Part shown: piece by piece, positions 23,969 to 61,889 of the stretch
Layout of the letters: each line of letters begins with the position of its first letter
Position numbering within the stretch: the first letter of the stretch is position 1
From: Jaapia argillacea MUCL 33604
Lineage: Eukaryota; Basidiomycota; Agaricomycetes; Jaapiales; Jaapiaceae
Direction: 5' to 3'
Assembly (NCBI GenBank): GCA_000697665.1
Contig: KL197733.1
Span: 462,600 to 526,599 of the forward strand
DNA: 64,000 nt
Notes under the pieces: generated by a model
What the model saw: only the letters and a program-made list of their open reading frames with translations
What the model was told of the DNA's origin: nothing
Database searches by the model: none
Program-made: the position numbers and the translations under genes

Positions 23969-24350
23969 CTGAACTCCGACAGTAACTTTGTACCATCATG
24001 AAACAGCCTTTGCGTCCTAGTTTGCGTAGTTCGATGCATAAAAAACCAGCATTTATCGGCTCAGAATCCTCGGACCCAGCAAGGGGAGTATCCAGGAATT
24101 GAAGGAGTAGGAATTGGTGTCGTAGATAGGTGAAAACGAAGGGGGCCAAAGCCAACCTGGCTTGGTTGAATATTGTCCCGCTGGGACGGCGCTCCTAGGC
24201 CTTCGTCCACTCCCTGTAAAACCCAACGACCTCCTTTAGACACCGACAGCGTCAACGATGCAATCTGAAGTAGACCCGGATCCCTCGCTCTGAGCCAACG
24301 CCAACATTGGACTCTATAGATTCTAAAATCTTCTCGGACTGCGAGCCAGT
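23969..24350. other. 3' flank of BTB copy 2 beyond the pogo element
   Basis: Positions 24,020-24,160 match the flank of BTB copy 1 at 10,918-11,050, including the shared GCGTAGTTCGATGCATA. The last 80 bp reads toward the start of BTB-2A but has no sound start codon. Confidence 0.6.
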
Positions 24351-25168
24351 GTACCACCCGTTGTTCTCCTCCCCCCAGGCGGACATCGTCCTCGGCTCGA
24401 AATCCAACAGTCTCTTCCGAGCTTCGGTTACTCTCAAATCCACATCAGGATAATTCAGAATCATGTCCTCTCTCCCCAACATCCTTCCTCGGAGACCAAA
24501 ATCATCCTCGACGAAACGACAGAAACCCTCACCTCCCTCCTCCTCATTTCTCATTTCTGGTCTACCGCTCCCTCCTTTGACCTCGTAAGGCGTCATCGAG
24601 CCCATCGTGTACGCAGCAGAGAAATACGACATGCCAGGCCCACTGTCCATAGTCTGCGCCTTATCCATGGCCCCTCACTTTCTCTCCGACCCTCTCCGTC
24701 TCTACTCCATGGCATGCCGCTACACCTGGTCAGAAGAAGCCCGTTCCGCATCAACCCTATCCCTCTCTCTCCCAATCTCCACTCCCCCGAACACCTCCCC
24801 ACTCTCCACACCCTCTCCACGTCCGCTTTACTAGCTCTCTTCACCCTCCACAGAACCCGTCGTAAATCTCTCCGAATGAGATTGAACCAGCCGCCTTTCG
24901 TATCTAATACCGGCCCCGCTAGTTGTTCGACTTGTGGGAGGGCGATTAGTTATGCGACTTGGAGGGAACTCAAGTATGTGATGATTTTGGAGATGGATTA
25001 CCGCTTGGGGATGGGATAGTGAATGCGGGGTCAGTGACTTGGAGAGAGGCGAAAGCTTGTTGGGATGCCAGGTGTGGAGGTCAGGAGTGTAAGAGGGTGC
25101 TTTATGATGAGGCGGAGACTGTTAGGGTTGTTAGGGAGTGTATTGAGCCGCTGCCCAAGTGCATTTGA
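24351..25168 (+). pseudogene. B2 family BTB gene, copy A (degenerate)
   Basis: Recognisable as a BTB-type protein by VYHPLFSSPQADIVLGSKSN, typical of Agaricomycete BTB proteins. A helical C-terminal half follows: YAAEKYDMPGPLSI, YSMACRYTWSEEARSAST and CSTCGRAISYATW. The frame is broken. A TAA replaces a Trp codon at about 24,450. Another TAA replaces a Tyr codon at about 24,588. Small indels occur near 24,480-24,560 and 24,760-24,860. It is the first gene of the left cassette arm. Confidence 0.75.
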
Positions 25169-25407
25169 ATGTGCGAGGATTTGATGAATGGGATGAGATG
25201 GGATAGAGGAGGGTCAAAGGGGTTTTCGGTCGAGGGCGAAGGGAGGATGGGGGCATTGTATCGACTCGTTTTCGATTTTTGTCTTTGACGTTTTACGAGG
25301 GTACGCATCCCCGTACTTATCCTCCCAATGCAATGTGATTCATCCCTACCCTTCGATCCAGCCAACCCTGCAAGTTTACCTCCTCGAGTCTCTGATTCCG
25401 TTACTTG

Positions 25408-25788
25408 TTATATGCTATCAAGGCAAGCGTCCATGTATGCTTTCGAACTCGGGCGAGAAAGCTTCTCTCGACCACAGATACGAATCAGATCGCTCGCCTG
25501 AACAGACCCCTTCCAAATACTATTTATTAAGACTCTACCCGAATCTGCATCCAGCCCTTTCATCCCCTCAAAACCTTGGCGTTCATAATCAACCCCTCCG
25601 ACGTGAACCAAGGTGTAAGTTGTGAACTCTCTTTCGTTGGGCGCCAAGGATAACTGATCGTGGTTTTCTCTAGGTCGAGGCGGTTGTCTCGGAATGTGCA
25701 GTGCGCTGCGGGATTGGGAGGCTACATCCATCTGATCTATCCTCCATTTCAGTTGTTCGGGGCGCTGCTGGTGAAGTAAGTAATTCAA
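25408..25788 (-). CDS. Cassette unit P, copy 1 (unknown)
   Basis: An open frame of up to 126 residues with no domain I recognise. It is homologous to 60,437-60,760 (+). Shared blocks include KWRID, a YTLVHVGGVDY-like segment, VFEGMKG and CGREKLSR. In both places it lies beside a B2 gene, on the opposite strand. A remnant of its edge is also seen near 53,480-53,590 beside B2-D. It may be a real small gene or the 3' region of the B2 unit. Coding status is unproven. Confidence 0.35.
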   Translation of the reverse strand: MNYLLHQQRPEQLKWRIDQMDVASQSRSALHIPRQPPRPRENHDQLSLAPNEREFTTYTLVHVGGVDYERQGFEGMKGLDADSGRVLINSIWKGSVQASDLIRICGREKLSRPSSKAYMDACLDSI

Positions 25789-25789
25789 C

Positions 25790-26400
25790 TACTATAGGCT
25801 CCCTCGTTTGTATATAGCAGGTTGGATTGACCACCTACTTGACAGCCCCCAGTCAAACAATCCCCAACACCCTCCTCCCATCCTCGCACCCAAGTGATTC
25901 GGACGTACATCGAACCTATCCTCTTGATCATTGAGGACGGCACTTGAGTGTTAGCATCCGCCCATCCACCTTGACAAGTTCCCCCGTTTGTGTGTTCACC
26001 TTTTGGTGGTGGGTCTATTAGCCTGAAGGACTCATGTCCTTCGTCGTCTCGCTGGGCTGGTGTCATCTATTCAAGGGTATATGCCGCGAACCTTGTGTTT
26101 TCATAAACTGTATCCAGTGACTGGGTCAACAAGTAGTTCAATTCCTGAGGGCTTTTAGCCCTCTCGCATTTATTTATAGTGGGTTCGATTGACCACATGC
26201 TTTCACGACCCCCAGTCAAACAATCCCCAAAGCCCACCTTCCATCCTCGCATCCGGGTGATTCGGACATACCCTACATGAGTTTGCAGGTTCGCTGAGCA
26301 TTTTACCAGTGAGTAGTCGTGTTCGTTGGGAGAATTGTAGAGTGGGAGGAAATCCTTCCAATAGTCTATCCACCCCCCGAGCCGCCGTCGTCACAACCCC
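25790..26400. repeat. Cassette repeat R, left arm copy
   Basis: A degenerate segment containing two internally similar stretches (25,800-25,960 and 26,150-26,290). Both carry the shared GGTTGGATTGACC/GGTTCGATTGACC and AATCCCCAAMNCC-type blocks. It sits between unit P and gene Z1, as R does in the right arm. Frames are broken and I assign no product. The stretch 26,400-26,660 continues homology to the sequence upstream of Z4 (about 58,100-58,190 inverted). Confidence 0.45.
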
Positions 26401-26660
26401 TGGCGTGGCAGAGTATGCGTCGTCGCCATGGGTGGGTCAGGCTCTATGACCAGCGATGGTGAATTGCAAAAAAATCCTCTCATAGAAAGTCTCGTTGTTC
26501 TCTCGATCCACTTAATTATATCGGACTCGAGCCTTTGCTATGTAACGATGAGGAGCAAGGTGTAAAAGGAGATGTTAATTTGTTTGGACGGGTGGGAATG
26601 AGAATGGTAATTTGAATTGTACTTAATGCACATTGGTCCCCAGCCACGAGTTGTCAGCCC

Positions 26661-27783
<1,123 letters not shown>

Positions 27784-28041
27784 GGCGAATCACCCTCGAT
27801 GTTTCTTAACCAACGCGCCCGTTACACTCAGGCTCCTCGGATTTGGCATGCACTCTATGTGTTGCTTCATCCTTTCGTACCAGAGCCCACGCACAGTTCC
27901 GTGATCATGATTGCACTGCAGTACTGCTTGGCTCAGTCGAGTCGAGTCACCTCCAGGTAGAACCCTCTCACACAACCGTATCGCCCCCCAGCTTTATTTT
28001 CGTTTCCTCCCCTACAAACATACCTACTCTGGGAACCAAGG

Positions 28042-30926
28042 ATGCAACGTCCACAAGGAGGCTTTGGCTATGATCACCACGACGGTAGGGGCCCGTCCGA
28101 CTCTGAGTCCGACCACCACCACCCCGAGATCATCATCTTCAACTCCCAAATCTACCAACTACGACGTGTCGAAACCAGTTCTACAATATCAGACTTACCA
28201 GGTCCCGGTCGTACCCTGGGCAATGCCCTATCAAAGCTTGGTCGAACACTCGAACATTGTTTGACCGTTTGGGCCGAAAGACTTGGTCGTGGTCCCAATG
28301 CCGCTGCATTGCGTATCTTGCGTATCTTGGAGGACCTCGAATGCTGTCCTTGTGTGAAACCCAAACCTCGGTCGGCCTTCGTTGAACCATCGCCGACGGG
28401 CAAGACGTTGCAGTTTGAAGCGATCCTCGTTAGCTTGTTCAGAACTATCTTCCAGAAATCTTCCACGAACTCTTCCTTTTTGCTTGACGGCGAATCTGGA
28501 TCCCGGAAGTGTGCAAATTGCGGGCAAGCCAGGAAAGCCAAGCGTTTGTGGTCGGATAAGGAGAGGAAGGCTCTGCTTATCGAATGTCAGCGACTCGTTT
28601 CGATGATCAGGTCTGTCTTGTCGACTGTTTCGAGTTTGACGGTTCCACTGACATCGTTGATGACACCACCAATAGTCAGGGCAATTTCTCGACGCAAACG
28701 CTTGCCGTATCGTACATAGCAGCCCTAGCCCCCTCCCATCCCTTCTTTCAATCCTCCTTCATCTCCGTCGGCACCATCGAAGCCCTGGAAGCCATACTCT
28801 CCACCGATATCCCATATAGTCGAGACTTGGATGCCTTGTTGTTTTCCGCCAGACGTGCTCTAGTGGCCATGACAGAAACCAAGGTCCTCTCGATAGCAAA
28901 ATTGATGGGACACCAAAAAAGGATTATAGAGGGGAGTTCTTTCCATCCCATAATTGCCTCTACAGGCGCTTCTGGGTTCTGGGATGTTGAAATTCATTCA
29001 ACGCCGTTTCGTTATAGTGAGTGAATACATCATTCTCTTGTGTTGTTGCTCCGAATTTAAACTGGTATTATGGTAGAAATCAAGGTCATGTCGGCATGGA
29101 AAGGTATTGCAGAGAACAATCAGAATTTGATCCAACTTTTACGGCAAGTCATGCCCCTCCTGTGTTATCACTGATAATATTGATCGAGAGGAATTGGTTA
29201 CAACAACAACAGTGACCCACAGACTCGAACACTGGCAGCGGCAACTTTCGCCAGACTCTATCCTCCCGTTTCTCACCAACACACAATAACCACCTTTCCT
29301 ATCGTTCCCGCAACCACCTGGCCTCAGCGTGCTACCAAACCCGACTTTCTTCTCTTTGCCAAAACCACCTTCCGTGATCCAGCTACCATTGAATATTTCT
29401 GGTTTGAATTGTCTCGGGCGAAAGACGCGTTTGATCAAGTTGTATTGTTACATCTTTTGGAGGTTCTTATGGACATGTAGAGGCGGATTTAGAGCGTGAT
29501 GTCACAATCAATTGGAAATGGAGAGCTTTCTTCGAACCTGCGATGAGGTTCTGGTGAGCCCCTCATTTCCTTATTCCTGCCCGAATTATTTTTTGACTGA
29601 GGTTTTACCTGTGAGTATGTCGATGCCAAGTTTCTCCTCCCCTTTCCTGGATCGACTTTTCCAGCAGTTATTGGAATTGATGGAGGTGGCTCCCTACAAG
29701 ATTTCGTACATCTTCCCTTCCACTGTCAATTCGTCCCCTTCGTTCCATCCGATACTGGGGTTTGATCGTTACCAGACACAACCCCTAGCCACGGACCAAC
29801 GAACCTCGACTACTTACTCCCTCGCAAGTCGTGCAATTCAAACACTCCTCGATCCATTCTTTCATTATCGGATTCAGCTTTTTCCTCGACTCCCACTATT
29901 ACAAGACTCCTAAATCACGAAAGGACGTGTGGGTGGACGTACGGTCATTTAGGGTCAAGAAGGCTTTGGAGAAGAGCGTCGCTGATGTCTTGGCTAGACA
30001 GCTTGTCTCGCTTTTCGAACGGTATGTCCACAATATTTTTTGTGGGTCTTTGCCTAGTTTTGTCGTGGTTTCTCATGGGACGATGGTTGTTATAGCGGAC
30101 ATTGTACCGTCGATCAGGTCATGCAAATCTGTACAGAACATCCGGATTGGAGCGGCCTGTTAGAGAGGATGTATCGTCATCTGGCCGTCGTGACATAGCC
30201 TCAAGTGCGGCGCTTCTCCAGGGCTTCAAGTCACGATTGCCACTTCGCCGCCTTCGCTGCACAGGTATCTTCAGGCTTGATTGTACAAAGTAGGTCCAAT
30301 GATGTAAGACATTCTCATATCCAAACTGACTTCCTCCCAAGGGGGGAACCTGGATTGTCAGAATGCCTGGTAACGGATAGCCAACACCTCCTTTGTTGGT
30401 TGGAAATCTCAAAAATAGAGAATCAATCATATGACAAGTCTTGCCAACCTCTCCCCATCTTCCATCATTCCCCGGTGGATGGTCAAGGACCATTCTACGT
30501 GTTGCGATACAGCGGCTGGGGGTGCTGGGACCTTTCGAACACACGAATCATCCGGTCTCTTACGGATAACGGTCTACAGTCTTCCAACTGGTTCGTTTTG
30601 GCAACTCGATGTGACGAGGGCAATATCGCTCTGAACGGAAGGTACTTTTGGCAATCGGGTGATGGGTGAGCTTGGCTTCTTTGATATGAACGACATGCAA
30701 TTGTACTTTACTCTTTACTCACCTCTCACGCAGACTCTTGACTGACGTCTTCACGGGCCAGCTGGGTCTCCCGCTCGAAGAAGCTCCTCGCCCTCACTTC
30801 CACAACCCAGATCAAGATCGGCCAGTATTCTGGGCCCGTATGTGGGAGCACCCTGCCTGGAAAGACAAAGCCGACATTCTCAATCCCTCTGAATATCACA
30901 TTGGTTTTGATCCTCACCAAGACTGA
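28042..30926 (+). pseudogene. Z family gene copy 1 (two frameshifts)
   Basis: Paralogue of Z4 with the same eight-exon plan; the first exon (28,042-28,610) is exactly as long as Z4's. Exon 2 runs 28,676-29,016 and exon 3 29,077-29,143. The intron after exon 3 starts with GC instead of GT. One base is missing near 29,466-29,471 in exon 4. One T is gained in a T-run near 29,877-29,886 in exon 5. The last exon ends the protein at YHIGFDPHQD (30,926). Apart from these two indels the reading frames are open. Either the copy is newly dead or the assembly has single-base errors. Confidence 0.7.
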
Positions 30927-31135
30927 GCCTACACCCGAAGGGTAAAGCATGTGGATTGGTCCATTGTGTACAGAGTAGATTCGATCCATTCCGGAGTATA
31001 GGAACCCAGACTACAAAGTCTCTTCTACCAAGCTCGTTCACATCTCTAGAGGGTCACGTTGGGGATAAACCGTCTCCGATCATGGTCCTGCCAATTTTAT
31101 GTCTGTTTTGCATTTGATCAAATATCCTATCACCA

Positions 31136-31200
31136 TCGTAGCGGCGGCAAGCACCAGTCCCCGATTCCGTTATGGTTGGCGGGATGGCGAAGCTCGAGTT
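31136..31200 (+). repeat. Dispersed GTAGCGGCGGCAAGC repeat, copy 1
   Basis: About 60 bp beginning GTAGCGGCGGCAAG and running to GGTTGGCGGGATGGCGAAG. It recurs inverted at 62,548-62,612 and, shortened, at 58,206-58,235. All three lie at edges of the duplicated cassettes. Confidence 0.7.
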
Positions 31201-31316
31201 GGTCTGAGGTCCTACATTGGGTTTTCAACCCGGCGATGGTGAGTTGCACTTGGCAGGTGGCACGTTCTCTCTACACCGACGCCAGCAATCGACTCCCTCG
31301 ATTCTGAAATCTTCGA

Positions 31317-31630
31317 GTCAGTGTACCACCCATTGTTCTGCTCCCCCGAGGCGGACATCGTCCTCGGCTCAAAATCCAACAGTCTCTTCCGGGTGCATTC
31401 GGTTACTCTCAAATCCACATCTGGATGATTCAGAACCATGTTCTCTCTCGCCCAACATCCATCCTCTCCATCCTCGTCCGCCGACACAAAAATCATCCTC
31501 GACGAAACCGCTGAAATCCTCACCTCCCTCCTCCTCCTCATTTCTGGTCCAACGCTCCCTCTTTTGACCTCGTACGACCTCATCGAGTCCATCGTGTACG
31601 CAGCAGAGGAATACGACATGCCTCTATCTA
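31317..31630 (+). pseudogene. B2 family BTB fragment, copy B
   Basis: Homologous to the first third of the B2 genes (VYHPLFCSPEADIVLGSKSN to YAAEEYDMP). A TGA replaces the conserved Trp codon (about 31,424-31,426). The match stops abruptly at 31,630, where the M2 gene begins on the other strand seven bases later. It marks a duplication breakpoint. Confidence 0.75.
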
Positions 31631-31636
31631 GGTCGT

Positions 31637-32771
31637 TCATCGAAACTTGATAAAGCTGAGAACACCAATAAGAATGCCCAACACGGATAGAGCAGCTGCC
31701 ATATAACCTGACATACACGATGTCAGAACACTTGAGGATGAAGTGAGACCGTATCCTGCTCACCAGCAATTGTAAAAGCTGTCGAAACGTCATGAGTTAA
31801 ACAAGTATACACGATAGCGAGAACCAAAGTCGAGAGCACAGCGAGGATGACCCAAAAGGTGATACGAGTGGCACTCCACTGCTCGAGGAGCATAACACCC
31901 AGGTTTCTGTCTGCTGTCAAGCTGATAAGAAAGTGTTCTCGACCTCTAAGCTTATCGGGATGTCGGAAATAGTGACGGAAGCGTAGACCTTGCGCATCAC
32001 TAGGTAACTCCATGATTCGTTGGGGAATAATACCGTAGGTTTCAATCATGGACTAATCAATGAAGAGATTGAAGATGAATGTCAGATAACTCGACCATGC
32101 AAGGTGATGTGTTTGATCTACTTACTGGAACCATAGTAATAGCCCTGAGATTATATCCAGATCAGACATGAATCGTCCATGAGAGGATAGCTCTTCGCTT
32201 GCCTAACGCTCTTAAAAGAGAACAACCTCCTCCATATCGTGCGCAATGAATTGTACTTCCTCTTGAGCTCAATGAGAAGCCTCTCGTCATCCCAGCCTCT
32301 TTGCAACTCCAGCACCAACATTGATTCCCCTCTAAATACTTCTAGGGAGAAAGGGAGTTGTGGATACTTTTGGTTGCGATTATAAGCCAGCCCAACCGCC
32401 TCTGCGGGGTTGAGGTAAGACTCGTGACGGTCTGCGCCGGGCCATTCTGCGTAGCGCCACGACACACTACCATACATTTGCATCGGACTTATCATAGAAT
32501 GATTGTATTGGTGAACTCACTCATGGTAAGCTCCGGAATCAAAAAGAGGATAGGAGTGCTCAGGCTCCTGCCTTGGTTGTGAATATCCTGGGTATGTTTG
32601 CGGTAGGAAGGGGGCTGGTTGGGGTGCAAAATATGGCGGTGGTTGAGGCGCGAAGCCTGGAGGTGGTCAAATTGCAAGAATTGGAGCTGGAGGTTGCGGA
32701 GGTATGTAAACCACATAGGGAACAGAGCCGGTTCGACGCCGTGGTCGTGATCGTGGCCTACCCCCAATCAT
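31637..32771 (-). pseudogene. Membrane-protein family M, copy 2 (one in-frame stop)
   Basis: The most complete M copy. Exons 32,771-32,521, 32,487-32,203, 32,144-32,126, 32,052-31,764 and 31,707-31,637 sum to 915 nt with every junction in phase (304 codons). The N-terminal 80 residues are Pro-rich (PYVVYIPPQPPAP, PPPGFAPQPPPYFAPQPAP). The middle holds one WPGADRHESYLNPAEAVGL motif and a charged helical region. Two hydrophobic segments lie near the C-terminus (TFWVILAVLSTLVLAIVY and MAAALSVLGILIGVLSF). A single TGA at 32,669-32,667 (codon 35) interrupts the Pro-rich part. The intron after exon 2 uses a GC donor. A type II or hairpin membrane topology is plausible; function unknown. Confidence 0.7.
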
Positions 32772-33754
32772 GAAAAATGTAGTCAGTTGCACGAATTTGG
32801 AGATTAATGAGGGCAATCAGTGCTGCCAACAGTATTGGTACAAGAGGCAAACAAGATTGCGATACAAGTCAATCGGCGCAATAGCGGGGCTGGGATGTCA
32901 CTCGAACAAGCAAGCGCGAGAAGTCAAGAATCAGGAAGGGAGATTGGTCAAGTGCTGGTTCTGAGATTGCCGGAATCGCAACAGATGGAGTACGATCTGA
33001 ACATCATGAAGCATACGTTGCAACGTTCTTCAAAATCCCGGGCTGCGAGCAAGATTGGCTCTGATGGATATCGGTGCGAGGTGGGTCCGACAAATGATAA
33101 GGCTAGCGCAGATGACAAGCGCTCAACACGAGCGCTTGAGCCAGAAGGAGCTTGCATTTGGCCGTTGAGCGCCGGCGCTGAGGAGGAAGTATGCCACACT
33201 CGTCGAAGGACTCGGAAACGGCAGTTTAGCAATCCCCGAGGTCTATGGAAGAAGCAAACCATAGCTAACGAGAGGTGAACCCAGAGAATGTGACAGTCTC
33301 AAGGCCACCTTGTACCCTTCATCGAGATACGTTTGGCAGCGGATACGAAAGTTCAAAGGAGGACGGAAGTTGACCGGTCCCAGCAGGATTGATTTAGGTC
33401 CATGGACTACCGTGAGACTGTCGTGAGACCGCTCTGTTGGTCTTGCAATCCATATTCCAGATGTTTTCAACAACTCCGCAGGCAGATGAGAGCCGTCTGA
33501 AGAATGGCCAGAACCACCACCGATACAAATGGGTAGAATTCACAAAGGTTCATCGCGCTTGATTGCACACTGCCGCAGTGCGCGCAACGGTCGGAAACCT
33601 TCGAGGACCAGGCAGCCATATCCATTTCTAGAACGAGAGGACCCTCATAGCTTTGCAGGGGATAAGACCAAGAGTTGGAAGTCTCTGACTTTGCAATGGA
33701 ACGAAACTTGAACGCCATGAACGCTCGCCTCACTGCCCAAATCTTCGGGGTCAT
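32772..33754. other. Region between M2 and M3, no clear gene
   Basis: Open frames occur on both strands (33,467-33,754 minus, 95 aa, with a CAHCG and a hydrophobic stretch; 32,820-33,278 plus). None has a paralogue in the window, a recognisable domain or a splice pattern. I leave them unassigned. Confidence 0.4.
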
Positions 33755-35140
33755 TCACCTAAACTTGATGAAGTTCAAAACTCCGACCAGTATGCCCAGA
33801 ACGGATAGAGCTCCCGTCATATACCCTAGAAAAGTACCATGCATAAGAATCATTTGTCACAGGATGAGGAAAGGTCCCCCTTACCAGCAATCGTGAAAGC
33901 AGTAGACACATCATGGGTCAAAACAGAATAGCCGATCGCGAAAACCAGTGTGGAGAACACGGCGGAAATGACCCAAAACGAGATGCGACTGGCGCTCCAT
34001 TGTTCGAGGAACAAGACGCCTCGCTGTGGGTCAGCGGTTTAAAGTGGTCATGAAGTCATGAAGACCTCTGAACGACTCGGTCCGTTGGAGGTAGTGCTGA
34101 AAACGGAGACCTTGGGAAAGGTCTGGGGTATCCATGACGAGCTGGGGGAAGGCATGGAATGGCGTAACGTCCGACTGTGTGTTGTAAACGATCGTCAGAT
34201 AGTCCGCGCAGATGACATTGCATGCCACTACGACTCACCGGTACCATCGTGATAGCTCTGAAAATGAAGTGAAGTGGTTATCTGTCAGCCGCGTCCATGT
34301 AGTTCAGCGAAGAGCCACCAACCTAAGACACTTCAACGAAAACAATCGTCTCGGAATGGTACGCATTTCATTGTATTTCTTCACGAGTTCGGTTAGGAGC
34401 ACCTCGTCGTCCCACTCGCTATGGATCTCCAGCCACGATGAGTCTGCATCTCTGAACACCCTGAGGCTGAAACTCGACCAGGGAGGCTGCGACGAATTCC
34501 TTCGAACGGGAGTCAAAGGTAACCCAGCGGCTTCTGCGGGATTTAAGTAGGGGTATACCCAATCGGGCCAAGGCTCAGGATGGCGCTGTGATCTGGCGTA
34601 TTGCGTGTTTTTGGGCCTGTGTTTGTGGTGAGATAAAAGGGACCCGGAAGCAATCTACCCCGTACTTACTGATGCGTTCTACCCCTGCCACGCCCGAGGT
34701 CACGACCGCTCGGAATGTCACCGGTTGAAGGTAACCCAACTGCTTCTGCAGCATTGAAGTAGGGACGTATTGTCTCGGGCCAGGGGGTGGGTGCCTGTTG
34801 GCTCGCCATCTTTTCAAGATTGTACAACTGGATTCCCGCGATGACATGAGAGGTTAGCGAGGAAAATCAGCAAGAGATGATTTATCTCAGACTTACCGAC
34901 GAGGCCCGCCTCACTAATGTACAGGATAGGATCTTCGAAGGTTGTCTGTTTCGTAGGAGACACGGCTTGAACGACGACAGGCATTTCCACGCCGCACCTA
35001 CCCCGCAGCGGAAAATGAGCGTTAGATATATACAAGAGATGTTTCAAGGTCACGGTAGTAGCGAATAGACAGCATAGAGAGTACTCACGAGGTTGTGGGT
35101 GTTTGGTTGCAATCCGCAGGGGAGCAGGCTCTAGTCGCAT
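33755..35140 (-). pseudogene. Membrane-protein family M, copy 3 (frameshift)
   Basis: Closest to M1. It keeps the same 3' exons, ending in FIKFR and TGA at 33,757-33,755, and the repeated PWP..I..YFNAAEA.GLP motif in two exons (34,800-34,690 and 34,580-34,500). One A is gained near 34,035-34,045, so the main exon runs into a TGA just before the conserved ADPxRGxxFLEQW block. Upstream exons with MPVVVQAVSPTKQ (about 34,991-34,910) are tentative. Its 5' flank matches that of M1. Confidence 0.7.
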
Positions 35141-36103
35141 GAGAGTGGCTAAATCACTGCTATCCCATGTTTGGGAGGATGCGACGAAGAAGCAAACAGC
35201 CTCAGCGTCTCGCTCGAGTACTTACAATGAAGACACATATCCTTGCACGTATCCGCAGGTTTCAAGTGCTCGTGGTGAGCGCTTGAGTTGGATGGAGTAC
35301 GAACTTAACAAATTTTTGATTGCCTGCTGAGGGGAGGGTGCCAAGGACTCGGTGGTTAGCAATCTCCGAGCATTCCACGACTAGGTATTCCTGACTGTTC
35401 CTCGATGGCGAGCGATTGTTTGTGAGCGAGGACAGATCATACCAGAAGTTCATGATAACATAACACGTCTCACAGAAGATCTTTGAGGCCTATATACAAG
35501 TCAACGATGCCGCTTATTCACAACTCCTACTAGTGTCTGGGAAGCGCCTCATTGCCATGGGCGCCTCCTTCAGTACTAGTCAAGTCGGATCCTTGAAGAC
35601 TTCACGAGCTGAGTCATAATTCTGGGATGATGACATTCCACAGAGGGTATATCGTTGAGAATCATTCGACGGAGACAAGATGGAGAGTCGAAGTTGAAGG
35701 CCGAGGAGGTGTCTGAGCCGAACCGTGATGTCGGGATGTTGAGATGGTAATGTCTCATCCGCCACCCGATATGTTTAGAGTCTTCGACTGTTACTCAGTC
35801 TTTTGCATCTTTTGGTTCTCTTGACTTCGAAATACTCAAGGACAATCCTTCTTCGGTGGTGTCGGGCGTAACCATGAATACTCCACGGCTCTTGCATAAA
35901 TAGTCCCGTCCTCCATTTTTTCCCCTGGACCGTTCTCCACCTCGAATCTTCCAAGCAGAGTTTCGGTCGCTGAGCTACTAGCATCGCACGTTCAACCTCC
36001 AACCCGTCCAGACCAGGTGAGGAGGCCTAACTTTCTTCCATCTCTGCCTATATACTCACCCGTCTCTATTTCCCTCTCTCACCTTGTCCTAGACATCACA
36101 ACG
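35141..36103. other. Region upstream of the tryptophan gene
   Basis: Holds the 5' flank of M3, duplicated at 8,560-8,700, to about 35,850. The promoter and 5' UTR of the downstream gene follow. The ATG context at 36,104 (ACGATGGC) is good. I see no other gene. Confidence 0.5.
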
Positions 36104-48460: not shown

Positions 48461-48469
48461 GGTCTCCCA

Positions 48470-49067: not shown

Positions 49068-52000
49068 ATGGCCACGCCCGAGGGCAAGGATGACTTCGTC
49101 GAATTCTCAGCAAGTCTCCAGGCCATCATAGAGAAACTTCAAGATAATGTTGATCATATCCTGATCCACAAGGTGCATCTTCCCGTCGGTACCTACTTCA
49201 AACTGTCGGGCTCACCAATAACACATTTTGTAGCAATTGTATAAGAAACTTGTTGTATTGTGCGAGAGATATGCTTTCGCTATTCGACGTGGCCTTGCTG
49301 CTGTCGAAAGAGATGATTGGTCTGGGGTATTGGAGTGAGTTTATACCTCCAGCGAAGTCCAACCTCTTTTCTTATTCTCGTCAGGTGGTATGAAGAGTTC
49401 CTAGATTCCTCTCAGAGATGGGTATCAAGGGATCCGCTCGCACTACTATCAAGTAGGGATGTGATAAAAGAAAAGTTCAGTGATTTCGTGCGGGTTGCGC
49501 CGAAAGGTATGGCACAAATGGTTCGTTGAATACTTCGACCTTTTTGTGTAATTCTAATTTCGAGTCGAAGATGGACTGGCGGGAACCACTCTCTGTGTTA
49601 CTCACCCTCACCAGAGAGGATCTCGAACCAGTCTTGAACAAAGTTTTCCGGATGGACGAGTCCAAGGTTCGACTACTTCCCAAGGAAGATATTTATTCTG
49701 TGATCGACCTCCTTGATGCGGTTCGTAGTCTACGTTCAACATTTCGCCCCTTGCCGCTCATCGCCTTCCCCGTTGTCAAGACTCCGAATCTATTTTCTCC
49801 AAATGATCGCATCTACGTCCAATCTCTCGATCTACAACGGCGACTCTGTTCGGATGTCAAGTACTTGCCATCCCGTTACATGCTGAGTGGAGGTATCCAA
49901 ACAGACGAACAAGTGGCTAGGAAAGGTGGATTCTCCGATGTGTTCAAAGGGACTTGGAACGGACGAGATGTTGCCATAAAGTCGCTTCACAAGCTGAACA
50001 AGGCAGGTGGGACAACGAAGACAGTTTCAAAAGCTTTCTGGAGAGAAGTTGTGACTTGGAGACGGCTTTCACATCCTAATATCCTCCCATTCTTCGGAGT
50101 TCTTAAGCACAACGAAGGTGCCAATAATGAGGCGAGACTCGCAATGGTTGCTCCTTGGATGAGTCGTGGCCATCTCATCCAGTACTTAAGACAATTCCCA
50201 AGTGCCAATCGTGTTCAACTGGTAAGTCACTATTTGATCTGCAGAGGATATCTTTCAGATCTTTTCCCAGTTGGTCGACATCGGAGAGGGTTTGCGGTAT
50301 CTCCACAGTATGAGTATTCTTCATGGTGACCTGAAAAGTGTAGGAAGGCCGTGGAGCTCCGGAGAACTCTTGCTGACTAGTCTATGCAGCGTAACACTCT
50401 AGTTGACGATATGGGCCGTGCCTGTTTGGGTGACTTCGGCCTCAGCGATGTCCAGGGCTACGACTCCCCGTATGGATCTGGGACGGAACCTCTCCGTGGT
50501 GGATCTCTTCGATGGATGGCACCCGAACTATTGGAAGACGACCAACAATATCGGTCAGTATCGAGTGATGTATACGCCTTTGGGATGGTGATGTTCGAGG
50601 TGAGGGTTCTTACCTCTTTGTGGAGACTGAGAATGACCCCGCACATCAGGCATTTTCTGGACTTCCTCCATTCACAGAGCTTCGGGATGAAGTGGCTATT
50701 ATTAGTTTGATCAAGTCTGGCAATACACCTACTCGCCCACCAGATACGACTCCTCAACTTTCCGACGAAATATGGTCAATTATAGAAAGTTGTTGGAGCT
50801 ACGTTCCACGAAATCGTCCATCTGTTACATACTTGCTACATGTCCTGTCAAATGCTCTCAATGCATCCAGCATTGTCGATTCGGGCGAACAAAGAAGAGT
50901 CCCATCCACGCCAGGAGTAACTCAGTCCTGGACAGACATCGACAGGGTGTACATGGTAGGTGAATTGGATGACTCTATAAGTTGCTGCTGTCTGAATCTC
51001 TCCAAAGACCGTGAGTGATGGTGACTTGTACAGTCGCATTCACACCAGGTCTTTTGCATCCCTCCAAAGGTTGTGTGCCGAAGAACATAGGTTTCCTTCA
51101 CCGTGCACCATCACTACTGGTGTTGAAGTAACGAGTCAATATCCTATTGGCTTCGGTAGATATGCCGATGTTTACCAAGGTCGGTACAGGGGGCAGGACG
51201 TTGCGCTGAAAGTCGTGCGTCGCGTTAACCCGTTAAACAAGGAATACGGAAATATGATCCGGGTATGTCTTCTACTTGGGCACTTGGCAATTATTTGACG
51301 TCGAACAGGGGTTTTTCAGTGAAGCCCTGCTGTGGCATTTTATGTCTCACCCTAACATTGTGCAATTCATTGGAATTTCTACAACACTCGTTGTTCCTGT
51401 TCCAGGGAATACGCCACCCTTCTGCTTGATCTCGGAGTGGATGCCACAAGGGACTCTGGCTGAGTACCTGAAAGCTCGTCCAGAGACTTCCAGGCACGAA
51501 TTAGTGAGAAGCCTTTCTTCAATTTCCCAGCCTTTTGAATTTCATCTCAGCTCATAACTAATCTAGGCGCTGGATGTTGCCCGCGGTCTCCACTACCTTC
51601 ATTCTCAAAGTGTTGTTCATGGCGATCTAAAGAGTGTTCGTCATTATTTTTCCACTCTGAATGATTGCTTTGGTTAAACCACCCACCAGTCCAATATATT
51701 GATTAACGAAAGGTCTCGTGCTTGTCTAGCTGACTTCGGCTTGACAACCCTATCCTATCGTCAGGATCTCTTTGACCCCATCAAAGATACAGACATTGGA
51801 GGTGCTCCGGGGAGCCTTCCTGGGAGTGTTCGGTGGATGGCGCCAGAGCTACTTTTCCCGGTTGAGAATCATCCTCACTCATCCATCCAGAGCGATGTTT
51901 ATGCCTTCGGAATGGTGCTGTGGGAGGTAAGTACTCCCTTCATATGTATGCATCGGTGCGGCATTGGGTGTGGGGTTCACACCTATTTGTCAGATATCCA

Positions 52001-52374: not shown

Positions 52375-52639
52375 ACACTGGAATAAGAGTTGGTTACAAT
52401 GCATGTATTTTGGAGTTTTCCCTCGTCTTCTAAGTACCAGGACTCGGATATGATAATATTTTCCTCACTTCAAGTCCCAAATGGCTTCGCCCTTGGAATC
52501 AACTAATCCAGGGTTTAAGACGGGGCTACCTGCAATGCTCCACATGATCTCCCCTTTGTGTGGTACGAACATGTATCTCAGTTCAAATGAGGGTTTAAAC
52601 TGATATAATACTTGGAGGGATTAAGAATATCCATTTCGT

Positions 52640-52870
52640 CTCGCGTGGAAGGGCTCTACCGTCCCCAGACATGTATCACTGCCCACTCTTTGTGTGGGTT
52701 GTGGAAGCGAGGAAGACAAACTTCTTCAAGTGAGCCAGCCCGTTGGCCGGTAAAGACGTCAGTCGAGACTCTGTGCAACATGGGAATAAAGCACAATTGA
52801 GCGTCATTCTCGTCAAAGACTCGATTTGGAACCAACAAAGGTGATACCGGCTATCCATCACTAGACATTC
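52640..52870 (-). pseudogene. Z family remnant (last exons)
   Basis: A fragment with the LTDVFTGQRA...SLEE...FHNPHKEWAV block of the last Z exon, and a trace of the ECLVTD exon at its 5' side (SLVMDSRYHLCW-like). Both sides are truncated. It marks the Z position of the cassette that carries B2-D. Confidence 0.65.
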
Positions 52871-52919
52871 CTAAAGTCCAGGGGCTTCCCTTGGGAAGAG
52901 GCAGTCGAGCCTGAGTCAT

Positions 52920-53480
52920 GGCGTGAATGACGAAACATGTCGTTCCCATTCCCGCCTCCGTCCAAACAAGTATGTCCTTCTCCACGCCTCCCTCCACACT
53001 GTTAGCAACGGCTCGAGTCCGATAATATTCAGCGGGATCGAGAGAATCATCGAGAGTTTCTCCCAAAGGATTTTTAGCAGTTCACGATTGCCGATCATAG
53101 AGCTCGATCCACTCTTGGTGATGGCGAAGGTAACGAAACCGCCAGGGAGGGTGGGAGTGAGTCAATTGACCCATGAACACATCATCGAAATATACCTACT
53201 AGTTGGGTGGGTGAGCCGTACATTTCCACCGAAAACAAAACAAAACAAGGCTCACCAATTGGCCAGGGACCGACCCCCAGGAATCCCAGTTGTACGGCAG
53301 ACCCAAACGAGAATGTACCATGGGTCCGAGGCAATCACAGTGGCTCAAGAGCGCATACACCAAGGTATCGTTCATGATTCGAGAGACCCGAGTCCTCAAG
53401 CTGTTAAATGCCCAAGGGTTCGAGCGAGAAGGATTTCACGCAGAGTACGAACCGAGGAGGATGGAGTCATTTAGCCGAGC
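52920..53480. repeat. Cassette repeat R, next to B2-D
   Basis: Shorter copy of R. It shares the SRIMNDTLVYALLSH/GPMVHSRLGLPYNWDSWGSV frames (- strand) and the LEKLSMILSIPLNIIGLEPL-like frame with 58,130-60,130 and 46,800-48,010. Stops and indels break it. Confidence 0.45.
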
Positions 53481-53719: not shown

Positions 53720-54400
53720 TCAAATACACTTGAGCATCTGCTCAATACACCCTCTAACAACCCTAACAGACTCCGCCTTATCATAAAGCACGCTCTTATA
53801 CTCCTGACCTCCGCTCCTCGCATCCCAACAACCTTTCGCCTCTCTCCAAGCCTCCAACCCCGCATTCAATATCCCATCCCCAAGCGATCTACAATCCATT
53901 TCCAAAATCATCACATACTTGAGTTCCTTCCAAGTCGCATAACGACGGGTTCTGTGGAGGGTGAAGAGAGCTAGTAAGGCTGATGTGGAGAGGGTGTGGA
54001 GAGTCGGGAGGTATTCAGGGGAGTGGAGGTTGAGAGAGAGGGAGAGGGTTGAGGCGGAACAGGCTTCTTCTGACCAAGCGTAGCGGTATGCTATGGAGTA
54101 GAGATGGAGAGGGTCGGAGAGAAAGGAAGGTGTCATGCACAAAGTGCGGATTATGGATAGTGGGCCTGGCATGTAGTATTTCTCTGCTGCGCACACGATG
54201 GGCTCGATGACATCGTAGGAGGTCAAAGGAGGGAGTGGGAGACCAGAAATGAGGAGGAGGGAGGCGAGGGTCTCTGTCGTTTCTTCAAGGATGATTTTGG
54301 TTTCGGATGGACTGGAAGGATGTTGGGGGAAAGAGAACATGGATCTGAACCATCTTGATGTAGATTTGAGAGTAAACGAGTGGACATGGAAGAGGGCGTT
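53720..54400 (-). pseudogene. B2 family BTB gene, copy D (degenerate)
   Basis: The most open B2 copy, with about 200 codons running from FTLKSTSRWFRSM to IEQMLKCI. It keeps the conserved Trp. It has lost the ADIVLGS block to indels near 54,395-54,420, and it lacks the CSTCGRAIS segment of copy A, apparently by a clean deletion. The start codon region is not recognisable. Confidence 0.7.
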
Positions 54401-54439
54401 GGATTTAGCCTAGTAAAGCCGAGGATGAGGAGAGCGACT

Positions 54440-54840
54440 GGCTGAGTCTGGCAGCTGGCTTGAAGATTTCAGAATCGAGGGAGTTGACATTTCCTTCCTC
54501 CCTCCTTCTTTCACTCCTTCTTTACCCCAACTCGCCTGCCCCTTTCCCTCCCTAAATTCCGTGTCTTCTGCTCCCTGGCCTGCTCTCTCCTACCCTCTCT
54601 CTCTCGTCTCTCCTTCTCCATTGTTAGCAACCACCCCACAGCCATAGTCTCAATAAATAACCTCATCCCCATCACCACTTCGACATAATGAGATTTGCTT
54701 TTTGTGACTCATGTGCTATTCTATGATACATCAACGGGCTATAATGTAACCAACCTCTCCAAGTCAAAACTTAGCCCTCAGATTCCGAGCTGTCCCAGGA
54801 AATCCCCACAAAAAAAGAAATCAGAGGTCAGAGACGCTTG
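54440..54840 (-). repeat. 5' flank of B2-D, duplicated at 61,890-62,510
   Basis: A pyrimidine-rich tract on the + strand followed by a well-conserved block (CATAGTCTCAATAAATAACC, then ATACATCAACGGGCTATAAT). The same order follows B2-E, so the flank travelled with the cassette. Confidence 0.75.
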
Positions 54841-54986
54841 ATCCCCAACGTGACCCTCTGGATGTCGATGAGTCTTCGAAGCTTGGTAGAAGAGATTTGT
54901 TAGTCTGGATTCCTATACTCCGGAATGGTTCGAATCTACTCTGTACACAATGGGTGAATGCACATGCTTACCCTTTGGGTGTAGGC

Positions 54987-57834
54987 TCAAGGTTGGCGAG
55001 GATCGAAACCAATATAGTATTGAGAGGGATTGAGAATACCGGCCTGGTCTTTCCTGGTGGGGTACTCCCGCACTTGGCTCCAGGGAAATTTCCAATGGTG
55101 TGGGTCGTGGAAGTGACGAGGAGGAGCTTCTTCGAGCGAGACACTGCATTGGCCCGTGAAGACATCAGTCAAGATTCTGCGTGAAGGGTGAGTAAAGTAC
55201 AACCGAGAGTCATTTCCATGTAAACAGCCAAGCTCACCCATCAACCGATTGCCAAAAGCATCCTCCGTTCGGAGAGATATGGCCCTCGTCACGTGACTCA
55301 CGTCGAATCGCCAAAACAAACTGGTTGGAAAAATTTATATCTTTATCCATGAGAGACCGGCCGTGTACGATTAGTAGGTCTGGGTCGAAAGGGCTGTCGT
55401 CGTCTAGCAACAGGTAGAACGGACCTTGACCATCAACTGGGGAAGGATGAAAGATCGGGAGTGGCTGAAGAGACTCATTGTATGTTTGAGTCTCGATTCT
55501 CGTGACTTTCAACCAACGAAGGGGATGCTGGCTATCCGTTACTAGACATTCCGGCGATCCAGGTTCGTCCCTTGGGAAGAGGTGAGCCTGAGTACGACAA
55601 TGTCCGACATCCATGACTCACATTGTATCCACACGCCTCAAGATACCTGTGCAACGAAACTGGCGACGTAATAAGCATGACTTGGACCCATGGATAAACG
55701 CCGCATGTAAGCCAGGGTGGCGACCGGCAGACAGCCCGACAAGTTCACTGACTGGCCGCTCCAAATCTGGATGTTCTTCACAGACTTGCATGACCTGGCC
55801 AGCAGTACAGTGTCCACTGCGACAACCATGGACGATAAGTACATACGGCACAACTGGAAATGGCCTGAGGCGAAAGACAATTTTGCGGACATACCGGTCG
55901 AAAAGCGAGACGAGCTGTCTAGCCAGTACATTAGGGACGCTCTTCTCCACACCCTTCTTCACCCCAAGCAAGCATGGGTCTCTCCATCGGTCATTTGGTA
56001 AACTGTGATACTTGACCCTAAGGCTGGAGTCGAGGGAAAGTTGAATCCGATAATGAAAAAATGGATTGAGGAGTGTTTGAATTGCACGACTTGCAAGGGA
56101 GTAAGAAGTCGAAGTTCGTTGGTCCGTGGCCAAAGGATGTGTCTGGTAACGATAAAAATCCAGTATCAGATGGAACGAAGCAGACAAATTGACGATGGAA
56201 GGGAAGATGTATGAAATCTTGTAGGGGGTCGCCTCCATCACTTCTAATAAATCCTGGAAGAGGTGATCCAGGAAAGGGGAGGAGAAACTTGGCATCGACA
56301 TACTAGCAGGTAATAAATCCCAGTCAAAAAACAATTCGGGGAGGAATAAGGAAATGAAGGGCTCACCAGAACCTCATCGCAGGTTCGAAGAATGCATTCC
56401 ATTTCCAATTGATTGTGACTTGGTTCTCTAAACCCATACTCGACTCGACATGTCCACGAAGAACCTCCAAAACATGTAACAACGCAATTTGATCAAGAAC
56501 ATCTTTCGCCCGAGACAATTCAAACCACAAATATTGAATAGTAGCTGGATCACGAAATGTGGTTTGGGCAAAGAGAGAATAGAGGAGGGTCTTCGATATG
56601 TGTTGGGGAGTATAGAGTCGGGCAAAAGTTGTCGCTGCTAGTGTTCGGGTCTGTGGGCCACTGTTGTTTTGGTAACCAATTCCTCTCGATCAATGCAATC
56701 AGTGATAACACAGGAGGGGCGTGACTTACCGTAAAAGTTGGACCAAATTCCGATTGTTCTCTACAACACCTTCCCATGCCAACATAACCTTGATTTCTGT
56801 CATAAGACTAGTTCCAATTCGGAGTAGCAACACGAGAGAATGATAGATTCACTCACCGGGGTCATGGGGCGGCGTTGGCTGATTGTACCATCTAACGTCC
56901 CAGAACCCAGACGTGCCTGTATACGAGAGATGGAACGAATTCCTCTCTAAAATCCTTCCTTGGTGTCCTATCAATTTTGCTATCGAGAGGACTTTGGTTT
57001 CTGTCATGGCCACTAGAGTACGTCTGGCGGAAAACAACAAGGGATCCGAGTCTCGATTATATCCGATATCGGTGGAGAGTATGGCTTCCAGTGCTTCAAC
57101 CGTGCCGACGGAGATGAAGGAGGATTGAAAGAAGGGATGGGAGGGGGCTAAGGCTGCTATGTAGGATGTAGCGAGGGTTTGCGTTGAGAAACTGCCCTGA
57201 CTATTGGTGGTGTGATCGATGGTGTTGGTGGAAATATCGAACTCGAAACAGTCGACAGGACGTACCCGATCATTGAAACGAGTCGCTGACATTCGTTAAA
57301 CAGTGTCTTCCTCTGCTTTTCCGACCACAAACGCTCCGATTTGCTAACATTCCCACAATTCGCACACTTCCAAGATCGGGATTTGTCGTCAAGCAAAACG
57401 GGAGAGTTCGAGGGAGATTTCTCGAAAATAGTTCTGAACAAGCTAACAAGGATCGCTTCAAACTGCAGCGTCTTGTCCGTTGGTGATTGTCCCACAAACG
57501 CAGATCGAGATTCGGACTTGGTGCAAGGACAACATTTGAGGTCCTCAAAGATACGCAAGATCCGCAATGCCGCAGCGTTGGGACCACGACCAAGTCTTTC
57601 AGCCCAAACGGTCAAACGCCGTTCGAGTGTTCGACCAAGCTTTGATATGGCGTTACCGAGGGTACGGCCAGGACCTCGTAAGTCTGATGCTGTGGAACTG
57701 GTTTCGACACGTCGTAGTTGGTAGATTTGAGAGTTGAAGATGATGATCTCAGGGTGGTGGCGGTCGGATCCAGAGTGGGACGGGCCTCTATCGTCGTGGC
57801 GATCATAGTCAAAGCCTCTTTGTGGACGTTGCAT
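54987..57834 (-). CDS. Z family gene copy 4 (intact), protein of unknown function
   Basis: Eight exons (57834-57266, 57200-56857, 56796-56730, 56660-56367, 56302-55895, 55816-55622, 55570-55238 and 55176-54987) total 2400 nt, i.e. 799 aa, with every phase matching. I recognise no known family. Visible features are a charged N-terminus, CCPC at 101-104, a CANC pair at 157-160 that could form half of a metal site, helical middle exons (WKWNAFFEPAMRFW and FLDHLFQDLLEVMEATPYK), and a conserved C-terminal module LTDVFTGQ...FHDPH...ILNPSQYYIGFDP. No signal peptide or membrane segment is obvious. Three decayed paralogues and one remnant share the window. Confidence 0.8.
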
Positions 57835-58090: not shown

Positions 58091-58129
58091 CGCCAGGAGT
58101 GACATCTCGTGCAGGCACCGAAGTCACCT

Positions 58130-60330
58130 AATTCCAATTACCATTCTCATTCCCGCCCCCGTCCAAACAAGCGTCCCCATCTACACCTTTCTCCACACTG
58201 TTAGCAATTGTAGCGGCGGCAAGCGCCCATCCCCGACTCTTCACAAGTTCATGTGGTGTCATACGGTTTCAAGCCATGCATTTTGCATTGCGAGATAATT
58301 TACATATTACATAGTGGCCACAAACGACTTCAGATGCGGATCTACCCTTGTAGTTGCCATTCGACGATCGCTACGAATCCTCACTACTATACAAATCGAG
58401 ACCGCAGCACACCATAAAATCCTGCAATTATACTAGCAAGTGAGAAGACGAAGTATGGCTGAGACATATCATGAACACGCACGATGATAGACTTCAAGTT
58501 CACGCAGCAGCACGAACAATCTGGATCGACCAGTGACCAGTTGAGCAACAAGATACGAGTGAATCAGATGAGCCAAGGGCACAAAGACTCAGACAGGATT
58601 GATCTGGGACAGAGGATAGCACGAGACGGACACGCCGAAACTGTTGCGATTAGAGAGCAGGCCAACGATCGGGCGAGATAGATGCGTGGCGTAGCCCCAA
58701 TGATCGATCCAAAGGTGACAGCGATGACGAGGCAAATGCAGATGATGAATGTTCTCACTGCACACCCTGAGATGAGTAGCAGGAAGTGAAAAATACCGTT
58801 TGGTGCGTTCAGTGTGTCGACGTCGTCCATCGGTTACTGCACGTCACCAACCAGCTTCAACGACTCAAAAAACGTCCTCAAACCAATAAGGGAACTATGA
58901 TGCGAGGTGACCGTCACAACGTCTGCTCTTTTGTATTGAGCGTGTTCATTTCCCCTCGCCAGAACCCTCCTTTGAGTCGGGGAAGACTCGAGCCCGATAT
59001 AAGTCAGCAGGGTCGAGAGAATCAGCGAGTCCCTTTCAGAGGATTTTTGCAATTCACCACCGCAGATTATAGAGCGCGATTCACTCTTGGTGACGGCGGC
59101 CATACTAGGCGGCCTATGTCGGGGAGGCTGGTGACGGCGACGACCACGAAAATGCCAGGGCAATTTGGGAGGGGGGAGCGAATCAATTGACCATCATCGA
59201 AATACGTCTACGTACGACGGGCCTGAGCCGCATACTTTCGCCCAAACCAGAAGAAAAGGGCTCATCAATCGGCCAATTCAATTAAGGGCACCCCCAGGAA
59301 TCCCAGGTTGTACGAGCGGATCCAGTCTATAATAGATCCGAGGCCTGAAGAACGAGGGGGTTGTGGTGGCCGCTTGGAGATAAGATCAAAGATCCATGGT
59401 GATCAGCGAAATCGTCAAGGCTCGGGAGGGGTTAGAACAACGGAAGGATTCCCGAGAATGTGCCATGGGCACGAGGATGCTCAAAGCCTGAGGAAAGAGG
59501 GGATGATAGTTAACCACATTGATAATGATAGACTTGTGGTGACAAGTGAATCCACCAAGACACGGGGGCGGATAGACTGCCGGAGAATGATTTCCTCCAA
59601 CTCCCGATTCCCAAACGAAATACCAGGGAACACGACTAAATCAAAGACGGGTAAAACGCTCAGTGAACCCACAAACCCACATTTCCAAACGCATCACTCA
59701 CCCATCTCCCCAGAACACGACCCGGGGGGTTGTTTATCAGTAACTCAAAATGAGGCATCATTCATGATTCGAGAAACCTGGTCATTGGACTGTTCAACAC
59801 CCAGGAGTTCGAGCGGGGAGGATTTCGCGTAGTTTACGAACCTCGCAGAGGCGGATGAAGTTGATATCGTCGTAACTTGAAGCGAGAAGGGACCCAAATG
59901 AGTCTGAAAATCAACAGCGAGAGAGAGATAAGCTGGGTTTCTCACCAGCCATTCCCAAGCGGAAAGGAAATCAATTCCAACCTCTGCAAAACCCGTATCA
60001 GCATTCCCATGAGCTTGGAACGATACCCACGCCCAAAGCCAGTTTCCGCAAAGAAGGTTCCTAGCATATACCCTCGAAAATTTGATGTACTTGCAATCAC
60101 CCCGCTCGGGAGGGTCATCAACGCATAAATAGCACTAACTCAGCCTGAGCGAGATGATGAAGCGCCACTTGTACATTCGTCCTTCAGGTTAACCGACCCA
60201 CCACCAAAAGGTAAACTTACAAACGGGGGTAACTGTCGACGGGAATGGGAGATGCCAACGCTCAAGTGCCATTCTTGATAATCAAGAGGGTAAGCTCGAT
60301 GTAGGGAGTACGTCCGAATCACTTGGTTGC
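58130..60330. repeat. Cassette repeat R, longest copy
   Basis: A degenerate 2.2-kb segment between Z4 and unit P. It contains the same blocks as the other R copies, among them CCCAGGAATCCCAG and ATTCATGATTCGAGA. Hydrophobic frames occur on the - strand, but none runs beyond about 100 codons and no splice model works. A shortened copy of the GTAGCGGCGGCAAGC repeat lies at 58,206-58,235. Confidence 0.45.
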
Positions 60331-60436
60331 GAGGATGGGAGAAAGCAGGAGGGGGTTCGGGATCGTTTGACTTGACGGTACGAGGGTAGGTGGTGAATCC
60401 GACGCACTATAAACAAACGAGGAAAGGGCTAATACC

Positions 60437-60760
60437 TCAAGAAGCAGATGAACAAACGAAATGGAGGATAGACGAGATCTCAGTAACCTCACACACCTGC
60501 AGCACACTCCCAACTCTGCATCCACCTAAAGAAACGCGGTCAGCTATGCTTGGCACCCACCGAAGGAAAGCTGACAACGTACAGCTTGGTTGACGTCGGA
60601 GTCGTTGATTACGGATGGCGAGCTCGAGTTTTTGAAGGGATGAAAGGGTCGGATGTAGATTCGTGTAGAGTCTTGAAGCTTTTGAAAGGGTATGTGGCTT
60701 GCAAATCGATTTGTATGTGTGGTCGAGAGAAGCTTTCTCGCGAGAGTTTGAACGCATAGG
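60437..60760 (+). CDS. Cassette unit P, copy 2 (unknown)
   Basis: Homologous to 25,408-25,788. The frames TKWRIDEISV and TEGKLTTYSLVDVGVVDY...VFEGMKGSDVD...CGREKLSRESLNA are split by an apparent intron or frameshift around 60,520-60,550. Same position and relative strand beside a B2 gene as copy 1. Function unknown. Confidence 0.35.
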
Positions 60761-61045
60761 CGCCAACTTTGATAGCATATAGCCAAGGCATCGGAGCCAG
60801 AGACTCGAGGAGGTAAACTTGGAGCATTGGCTTGATTGAGGGATACGCATGAATCACGTTGTATTGGGAGAATGAGTACGGGGATGCGTACCCTCGTAAA
60901 ACGTCCAAGACACAATCGAAAACGAGTCGAACAAGGTCCGCCTCAATTCGCCCTCGACCGAAACCCCCTTCGACCTCCTCTATTACAACAGCATTCGGAA
61001 TAATTCCAGCACCCTCACCAATCGTCACCCCACATCGTCACCCAT

Positions 61046-61804
61046 TCAAATACACTTAGGCAACTGCTCAATGCACTCCCTAACGACCCTAACAGTCTCC
61101 GCTTTATCATAAAGCACCCTCTTACACTCCTGACCTCCACACCTCGCATCCCAACAAGCCTTCGCCTCTCTCCAAGTCTCCAACCCCGCATTCAAGATCT
61201 CATCCCAAAGCGGTCTACAATCCATCTCCAAAATCATAACATACTTGAGATTCCTCCAAGTAGCATAACTGATGGCCCTCCCACATGCCGAACAACTAGC
61301 AGGGCCGGTATCAGATACGAAAGGCGGTTGGTTCAATCTCGTTTGAAGAGATTCGCGACGGGTTCTGTCGAGGGTGAAGAGAGCTAGCAAAGCTGATGTG
61401 GAGAGTGGGGAGAGTGGGGAGTTCGGAGGGGTGGAGGTTGAGAGAGAGGGATAGGGTTGAGGCGGAACGGGCTTCTTCTGACCAGGCGTAGCGGCATGCC
61501 ATGGAGTAGAGACGGAGAGGAAAGGAGAGGAAAGGAGGGATCATGCACAAAGCGCGGATTATAGATAGTGGGCCTGGCATGTCGTCCTTCTCTGCTGCGT
61601 ACACGATAGGCTCGATGACGTCCTACGAGGTAAGGCCTGGGACTGGGAGACCGGAAATGAGGAGGAGCCTGAGAGGTGAGGATTTCGGTGGTTTCGTCGA
61701 GGATGATTTTGGTTTCGGATGGAGAGGAAGGATGTTGGGGGAGGGAGAACATGGTTCTGAACCATCCTGAAGTAGATTTGAGAGTAAGCGGGTGGAAGTG
61801 GAGC
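61046..61804 (-). pseudogene. B2 family BTB gene, copy E (degenerate)
   Basis: It keeps the conserved Trp (STSGWFRTMFSLPQHPSS), the YSMACRYAWSEEARSAST region and the C-terminus with CSACGRAISYATW and CIEQLPKCI. A few extra bases near 61,665-61,672 shift the frame. A TAG replaces the Tyr codon near 61,622. A further frame change lies in the PSELPTLPTL region (61,400-61,430). Confidence 0.72.
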
Positions 61805-61889
61805 ACGAGCCTCAGACGTGGGCAACATGTACAGATGCGGCCACACCCTCTTCACGGCGTGCACGCTGCGGTCAGTTTGCCCCTCGCTC

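Follow-up and report, generated by a model that had tools for sequence, protein, structure and literature searches.

A partly inverted array of duplicated units in Jaapia argillacea, with decayed BTB genes and a better-kept orphan gene

Results

We have analyzed 64,000 nucleotides of contig KL197733.1 of Jaapia argillacea MUCL 33604 (positions 462,600 to 526,599); the whole of this stretch is termed the window. When the window was compared with itself by blastn, two main blocks of the plus strand were seen to recur on the minus strand, 24425-26037 matching 61790-60173 with 78.2% identity, and 27793-31079 matching 58076-54828 with 79.0% identity. Overall, the arms extend from 24.4 to 31.1 kb (plus) and from 61.8 to 54.8 kb (minus), with 78-79% identity in these two blocks. 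The blocks lie in the same order on opposite strands, from which it follows that the inverted colinear arms are real. An earlier sequence-only reading had proposed such arms, built from a cassette of about 7 kb in the order BTB - P - R - Z, and the colinearity, relative strands and approximate size are borne out by this comparison. It had also proposed that the cassette was duplicated repeatedly, which the self-comparison, an alignment of four copies and the trees described below all support. The minus arm carries additional copies of the R and Z sequences at 46612-43566 and 42956-40159, matching those of the plus-strand unit A with 75.3% and 73.1% identity respectively.

The plus strand contains unit A and a truncated unit B, and the minus strand contains units E, D, C and F, the last comprising the R and Z sequences alone. 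The junctions between units are defined by self-blastn of the inter-unit spacers. The spacer before the BTB sequence of unit B (31123-31229, plus) matches 62623-62516 upstream of unit E, and that upstream of unit D (54488-54830, minus) matches 62144-62499. The spacer upstream of unit E (62144-62623, minus) thus has one part in common with the region upstream of D, and another with that upstream of B. These common spacers indicate a head-to-tail repeating unit of spacer, BTB gene, P stretch and RZ gene, where RZ denotes R and Z taken together.

The region between the arms had been thought to contain just two single-copy genes. Both are present and lie outside the cassette, and two copies or fragments of a further sequence, M, are found there too (31636-31892 and 33749-34963). 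The Trp gene (35904-37735, plus) encodes IGPS and PRAI domains at 36.2-37.7 kb, and a scan of the frames upstream gave no glutamine-amidotransferase match. The RING-like gene (approximately 38070-39662, plus) has a partial RING match at 39225-39296 (zf-RING_UBOX, 25.9 bits against 25.2). The M sequence, judged membrane-like by eye and having no Pfam match, occurs at 7140-8679, 31636-31892 and 33752-35842, the matched pieces being 71-82% alike; the last of these duplicates stops just before the Trp gene.

Within the minus arm, two protein-kinase domains on the opposite strand separate units D and C (49922-51935, plus; these are the limits of the Pfam matches and motifs and not of full genes). 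The first has HGDLK at 50322, DFG within 50429-50443 and RWMAPELL at 50510; in the second, HGDLK is at 51618, DFG within 51729-51743 and RWMAPELL at 51831. The repeated unit does not include these kinase domains.

BTB-like sequence is present in the units, as first read, and is recognized by Pfam in the copy of unit B, but none of the five copies (termed B2) is intact. The copy in unit A is a pseudogene (24295-25165, plus) with two in-frame stops and four frameshifting gaps against that of D, and the copy in E (61049-61806, minus) is likewise a pseudogene, with an in-frame TAG and three such gaps. That of unit B is truncated and has an in-frame stop (31276-31622, plus), while unit C retains a truncated fragment (48192-48445, minus) with an in-frame stop and frameshifting gaps. 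In unit D the 3' part (53720-54409, minus) is open over 229 codons, the 5' part is broken, and 87 alignment columns are missing relative to A and E. An intact frame through the BTB domain was therefore found in none of the five. The top-scoring copy, B2-B, reached 22.8 bits for Pfam BTB (PF00651; cut-off 20.5) with stops read as X, and B2-D gave 12.1 bits, below the cut-off; three-frame scans of B2-A and B2-E gave no Pfam BTB match.

Read in the frame of D, which itself sets the reference, the other four copies all contain nonsense codons: 2 in 222 aligned codons for A, 1 in 225 for E, 1 in 77 for C, and 2 in 85 for B, the second of these lying in a poorly aligned tail. At one shared Trp codon, copies A, B and C each have a different stop, and a common Tyr codon is replaced by a stop in both A and E. 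Both codons are a single step from a stop, making repeated hits plausible without selection. The dN/dS ratios among A, E and D are 0.25-0.41, which indicates that the BTB genes were constrained earlier. These ratios are no higher than those of RZ (see below), a point against the view that selection kept RZ and not BTB. A tree of the BTB copies separates A and B from E, D and C (ultrafast support 82; 57 for E with D). Among A, E, D and B, 8 sites favor the split AB from ED, against 3 and 1 for the alternatives, and B2-A is equally similar to D (0.864) and to B (0.865), so this grouping is weak.

The stretch P between the BTB and RZ sequences had been listed as an element of the cassette, but shows no recognizable gene. 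No Pfam family was matched by P itself in units A, E and C or, within D, from 53200 onwards. On the strand of the unit, no stop-free stretch between BTB and RZ is longer than 152 codons in A, 142 in E, 114 in C or 80 in D. P may nevertheless hold a small gene, or one with many exons. An open stretch of 201 codons on the opposite strand of E (59227-59829) was judged by eye to be due to chance. Conservation of P is piecewise between E and C, at best 79% over 370 columns. Self-blastn finds traces of P in unit A (26278-26618, plus) and unit D (52943-53465, minus), and the trace in unit C (46820-47866, minus) has an internal repeat (47068-47308 and 47354-47579). The P region of unit E (58130-59924, minus) has acquired an insertion of ~780 nt (58208-58986) that is absent from A and D. 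An insertion of ~1.2 kb (26620-27790, plus) is found only in A, and includes a broken piece resembling rRNA adenine dimethylase, whose score of 19.2 bits for Pfam RrnaAD falls short of the cut-off of 24.

R and Z had been read as two separate genes. When the four copies A, E, C and F are aligned, the R frame is seen instead to enter a conserved intron and to go on in Z; a single gene of eight exons thus has R as its 5' part and Z as its 3' part. Copy E (R and Z4; 54987-57834, minus) is open throughout its 799 codons, with seven GT-AG introns of 65, 60, 69, 64, 78, 51 and 61 nt. Taking the splice columns from E, all 28 introns of the four copies (seven in each, E included) end in AG; 26 begin with GT, and the donor of exon 3 is GC in A and likewise in F. 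Our home-made gene finder split RZ and fused unrelated exons, and the model comes instead from the four-copy alignment. One orphan gene of 799 amino acids thus replaces two unknowns, and automatic annotation could make the same mistake of splitting R from Z.

The remaining copies with both parts of the gene are A (R and Z1; 28042-30926, plus), C (R and Z3; 43637-46517, minus) and F (R and Z2; 40194-43007, minus), the last having no upstream BTB or P match. An R sequence had also been placed in unit D. It was not found there by tblastn of R exon 1, whose strong matches, at E 1e-73 or better, were confined to A, E, C and F; two further matches were weak (E 0.031 and 0.28) and lay outside D. What unit D does retain is the end of the gene (52574-52916, minus), with exon 8 of Z at 52769-52590 by tblastn, and short blastn matches reaching 52916.

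The 799-amino-acid product of copy E matched no Pfam family at E values up to 10, and had no significant relative in the PDB (four weak matches, the best with E 0.33). Pattern searches for relatives of exon 1 gave 120 matches in viral contigs and 85 in bacterial and archaeal contigs, none of which was confirmed by tblastn. An AlphaFold2 model of exon 1 made from the four-row alignment had a mean pLDDT of 39.8, too poor for use.

Relative to E, the other copies of RZ contain a small number of net single-base frameshifts. In A, exons 4, 5 and 6 have one apiece, three in all; C has a single one, in exon 6; and F again has three, one apiece in exons 2, 7 and 8. Copies A and F also have paired insertions in exon 2, of five bases and one base, which add up to six and remain in frame. 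Counting gaps common to several copies once for each, 29 of 40 exon gap runs are multiples of three (10 of 15 in A, 9 of 10 in C, 10 of 15 in F). No stop is present in the frame of E among 783 aligned codons of A, 787 of C and 778 of F, although the actual frame behind each frameshift does meet stops in that copy. The frame of E being the reference, its own lack of stops and lesions is no test.

How many stops should have arisen by chance? Over the 768-769 codons ungapped in every copy there are 623 changes confined to a single copy (128 in A, 133 in E, 138 in C and 224 in F). A simple neutral model of random substitution predicts ~4.8, 5.1, 5.1 and 8.5 nonsense changes respectively, ~23.5 in total. 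A one-step count gives 0, 1, 0 and 1; no copy has a stop at either of these two codons, each of which must therefore have changed more than once. The ratios of replacement on the four branches are 0.94 (A), 0.81 (E), 0.64 (C) and 0.56 (F), and the values for A and E, being near neutral, suggest that RZ may by now be under relaxed selection. Pairwise dN/dS (NG86) is 0.33-0.50, and below 1 for all six pairs.

The RZ tree groups A with E and C with F (bootstrap 100 in 200 replicates; 105 site patterns against 54 and 49). Synonymous divergence dS is 0.35 between A and E and 0.57-0.61 for the three pairs that include F. The introns of A and E are 0.789 identical, i.e., ~21% divergent. RIP, which would be recognized by a strong excess of transitions and by shifted dinucleotide indices in the repeats, was rejected as a source of the changes. 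The transition/transversion ratio in RZ is only 1.46-1.76, and TpA/ApT is 0.60-0.65 in the arms, compared with 0.63 for 14223-64000.

Discussion

Head-to-tail units, common spacers, and a mixture of open and broken copies are all seen here, and are what a tandem family evolving by birth and death should present. The reading that we favor, with a probability of roughly 0.8, is an old tandem array under birth-and-death evolution, of which a part is inverted, and in which the BTB gene has decayed while the reading frame of RZ was kept by selection. On this account a unit of spacer, BTB gene, P stretch and RZ gene would have multiplied, most simply by unequal crossing-over. Part of the array would then have been turned round by inversion, or copied in inverted orientation, such that the arms came to face each other across unrelated genes. 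Tandem growth followed by inversion fits the data; against a single inversion, the missing 3' part of unit B was not found beyond 62.6 kb in the window. The copies would subsequently have decayed, to leave all five BTB sequences broken and one of four RZ genes fully open.

The two genes of the same duplicated units have decayed very differently, and this provides an internal comparison in what is otherwise ordinary turnover of a gene family. RZ is free of in-frame stops, whereas the BTB sequences of the same units contain several, and it is chiefly from this contrast that selection seems to have kept the frame of RZ rather than that of BTB. The frame of RZ would have been selected until recently, and the BTB gene let go. 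Unless they are sequencing errors, the three, one and three net frameshifts in A, C and F argue against current function of these copies. If RZ does make a working protein, this is most likely to be intracellular and restricted to the lineage.

Could the frameshifts in RZ be base-calling errors of an unpolished assembly, all four copies being live? The net shifts are all of a single base, several of them in or next to short runs, and such errors would agree with the absence of in-frame stops where ~23.5 nonsense changes are expected. The BTB copies of the same arms, however, have nonsense codons and multi-base losses, and copy A alone would require three errors within 2.4 kb of exon sequence; we therefore regard this explanation as unlikely. 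That the arms themselves were created in assembly, from mis-joined haplotypes or contigs, is improbable in the extreme. Units A and E are ~21% different in both the aligned blocks and the RZ introns, which makes either an artefact or a recent event unlikely; a difference of this size exceeds expectation for alleles. The sole run of N in the window (13271-14222) lies outside the arms, with none from 14223 to 64000, and the arms contain insertions and deletions that are specific to individual copies.

It had been suggested, as a guess, that BTB, Z, M and the double kinase may form a fast-evolving interaction or recognition locus at this site. With the BTB gene broken in five copies of five, P showing no gene, and RZ intact in one copy of four, a cassette of four working genes in such a role is not supported. 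In a broader form of the idea, a fast-evolving recognition or interaction locus, RZ would diversify under selection, with or without BTB adaptors and kinases. The branch ratios of RZ, from 0.56 in F to 0.94 in A with no in-frame stop, would be in keeping with this, as would the retention of HGDLK, DFG and APE by both neighboring kinase domains. Set against it are the state of the BTB copies, the frameshifts in three of the four RZ copies, and values of dN/dS that are below 1 in every pairwise comparison, and we consider such a locus improbable. The sole hint of a fast-evolving protein is the near-neutral rate of amino-acid change on some RZ branches in the absence of an in-frame stop, and relaxed constraint explains this equally well. 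We give similarly little credence to a related proposal, that RZ is the founder of an undescribed fast-evolving fungal family that is diversifying with its frame kept, where the array would supply variants of, e.g., an intracellular self/non-self protein.

Several known systems resemble parts of this locus. One is the birth-and-death evolution, or genomic drift, of F-box and other ubiquitin-adaptor genes, treated for the F-box genes of plants (PMC3030570); there too a family has grown large by duplication, in part in tandem, and includes pseudogenes. The present array differs in that the better-kept gene is the orphan RZ, and it is the BTB part that is dead. FslK is a lineage of fungal kinases that is reported to have been retained and expanded in the Agaricomycetes (PMC3937382). 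The two adjacent PK_Tyr_Ser-Thr domains in the minus arm, recognized by Pfam kinase matches and motifs, belong to a genome of the sort in which kinases of this type expand, and might be members of that lineage; they lie outside the repeated unit. BTB/POZ is named among the domains whose abundance differs in arbuscular mycorrhizal fungi (PMC7550596). The array is not described in the parts of these three papers that were available (PMC3937382, PMC7550596 and PMC3030570), nor among the matches listed in word searches of the open-access literature.

Other Features of the Window

The window is eukaryotic and, in our judgement, basidiomycete-like: the genes predicted in it have short introns, and it contains the Trp gene and the kinase domains described above. 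No tRNA genes were found in the window, nor any match to Rfam at gathering scores. A gene at 0.5-3.2 kb is MCM-like, named by eye from its translation. An older pair of BTB-like genes lies at 9344-10891 and 16599-20208, 82-88% alike in DNA; with 26.4 and 22.9 bits, both exceed the cut-off for Pfam BTB. The second member of the pair is split by a transposon-like insertion of ~2 kb (17511-19554) with inverted ends of 58 nt that are 87.9% alike, and the corresponding empty site is visible in the copy at 9344-10891. Beyond it, at 20776-23373, is a transposase-like gene with DDE_1 and Tc5-type DNA-binding domains.
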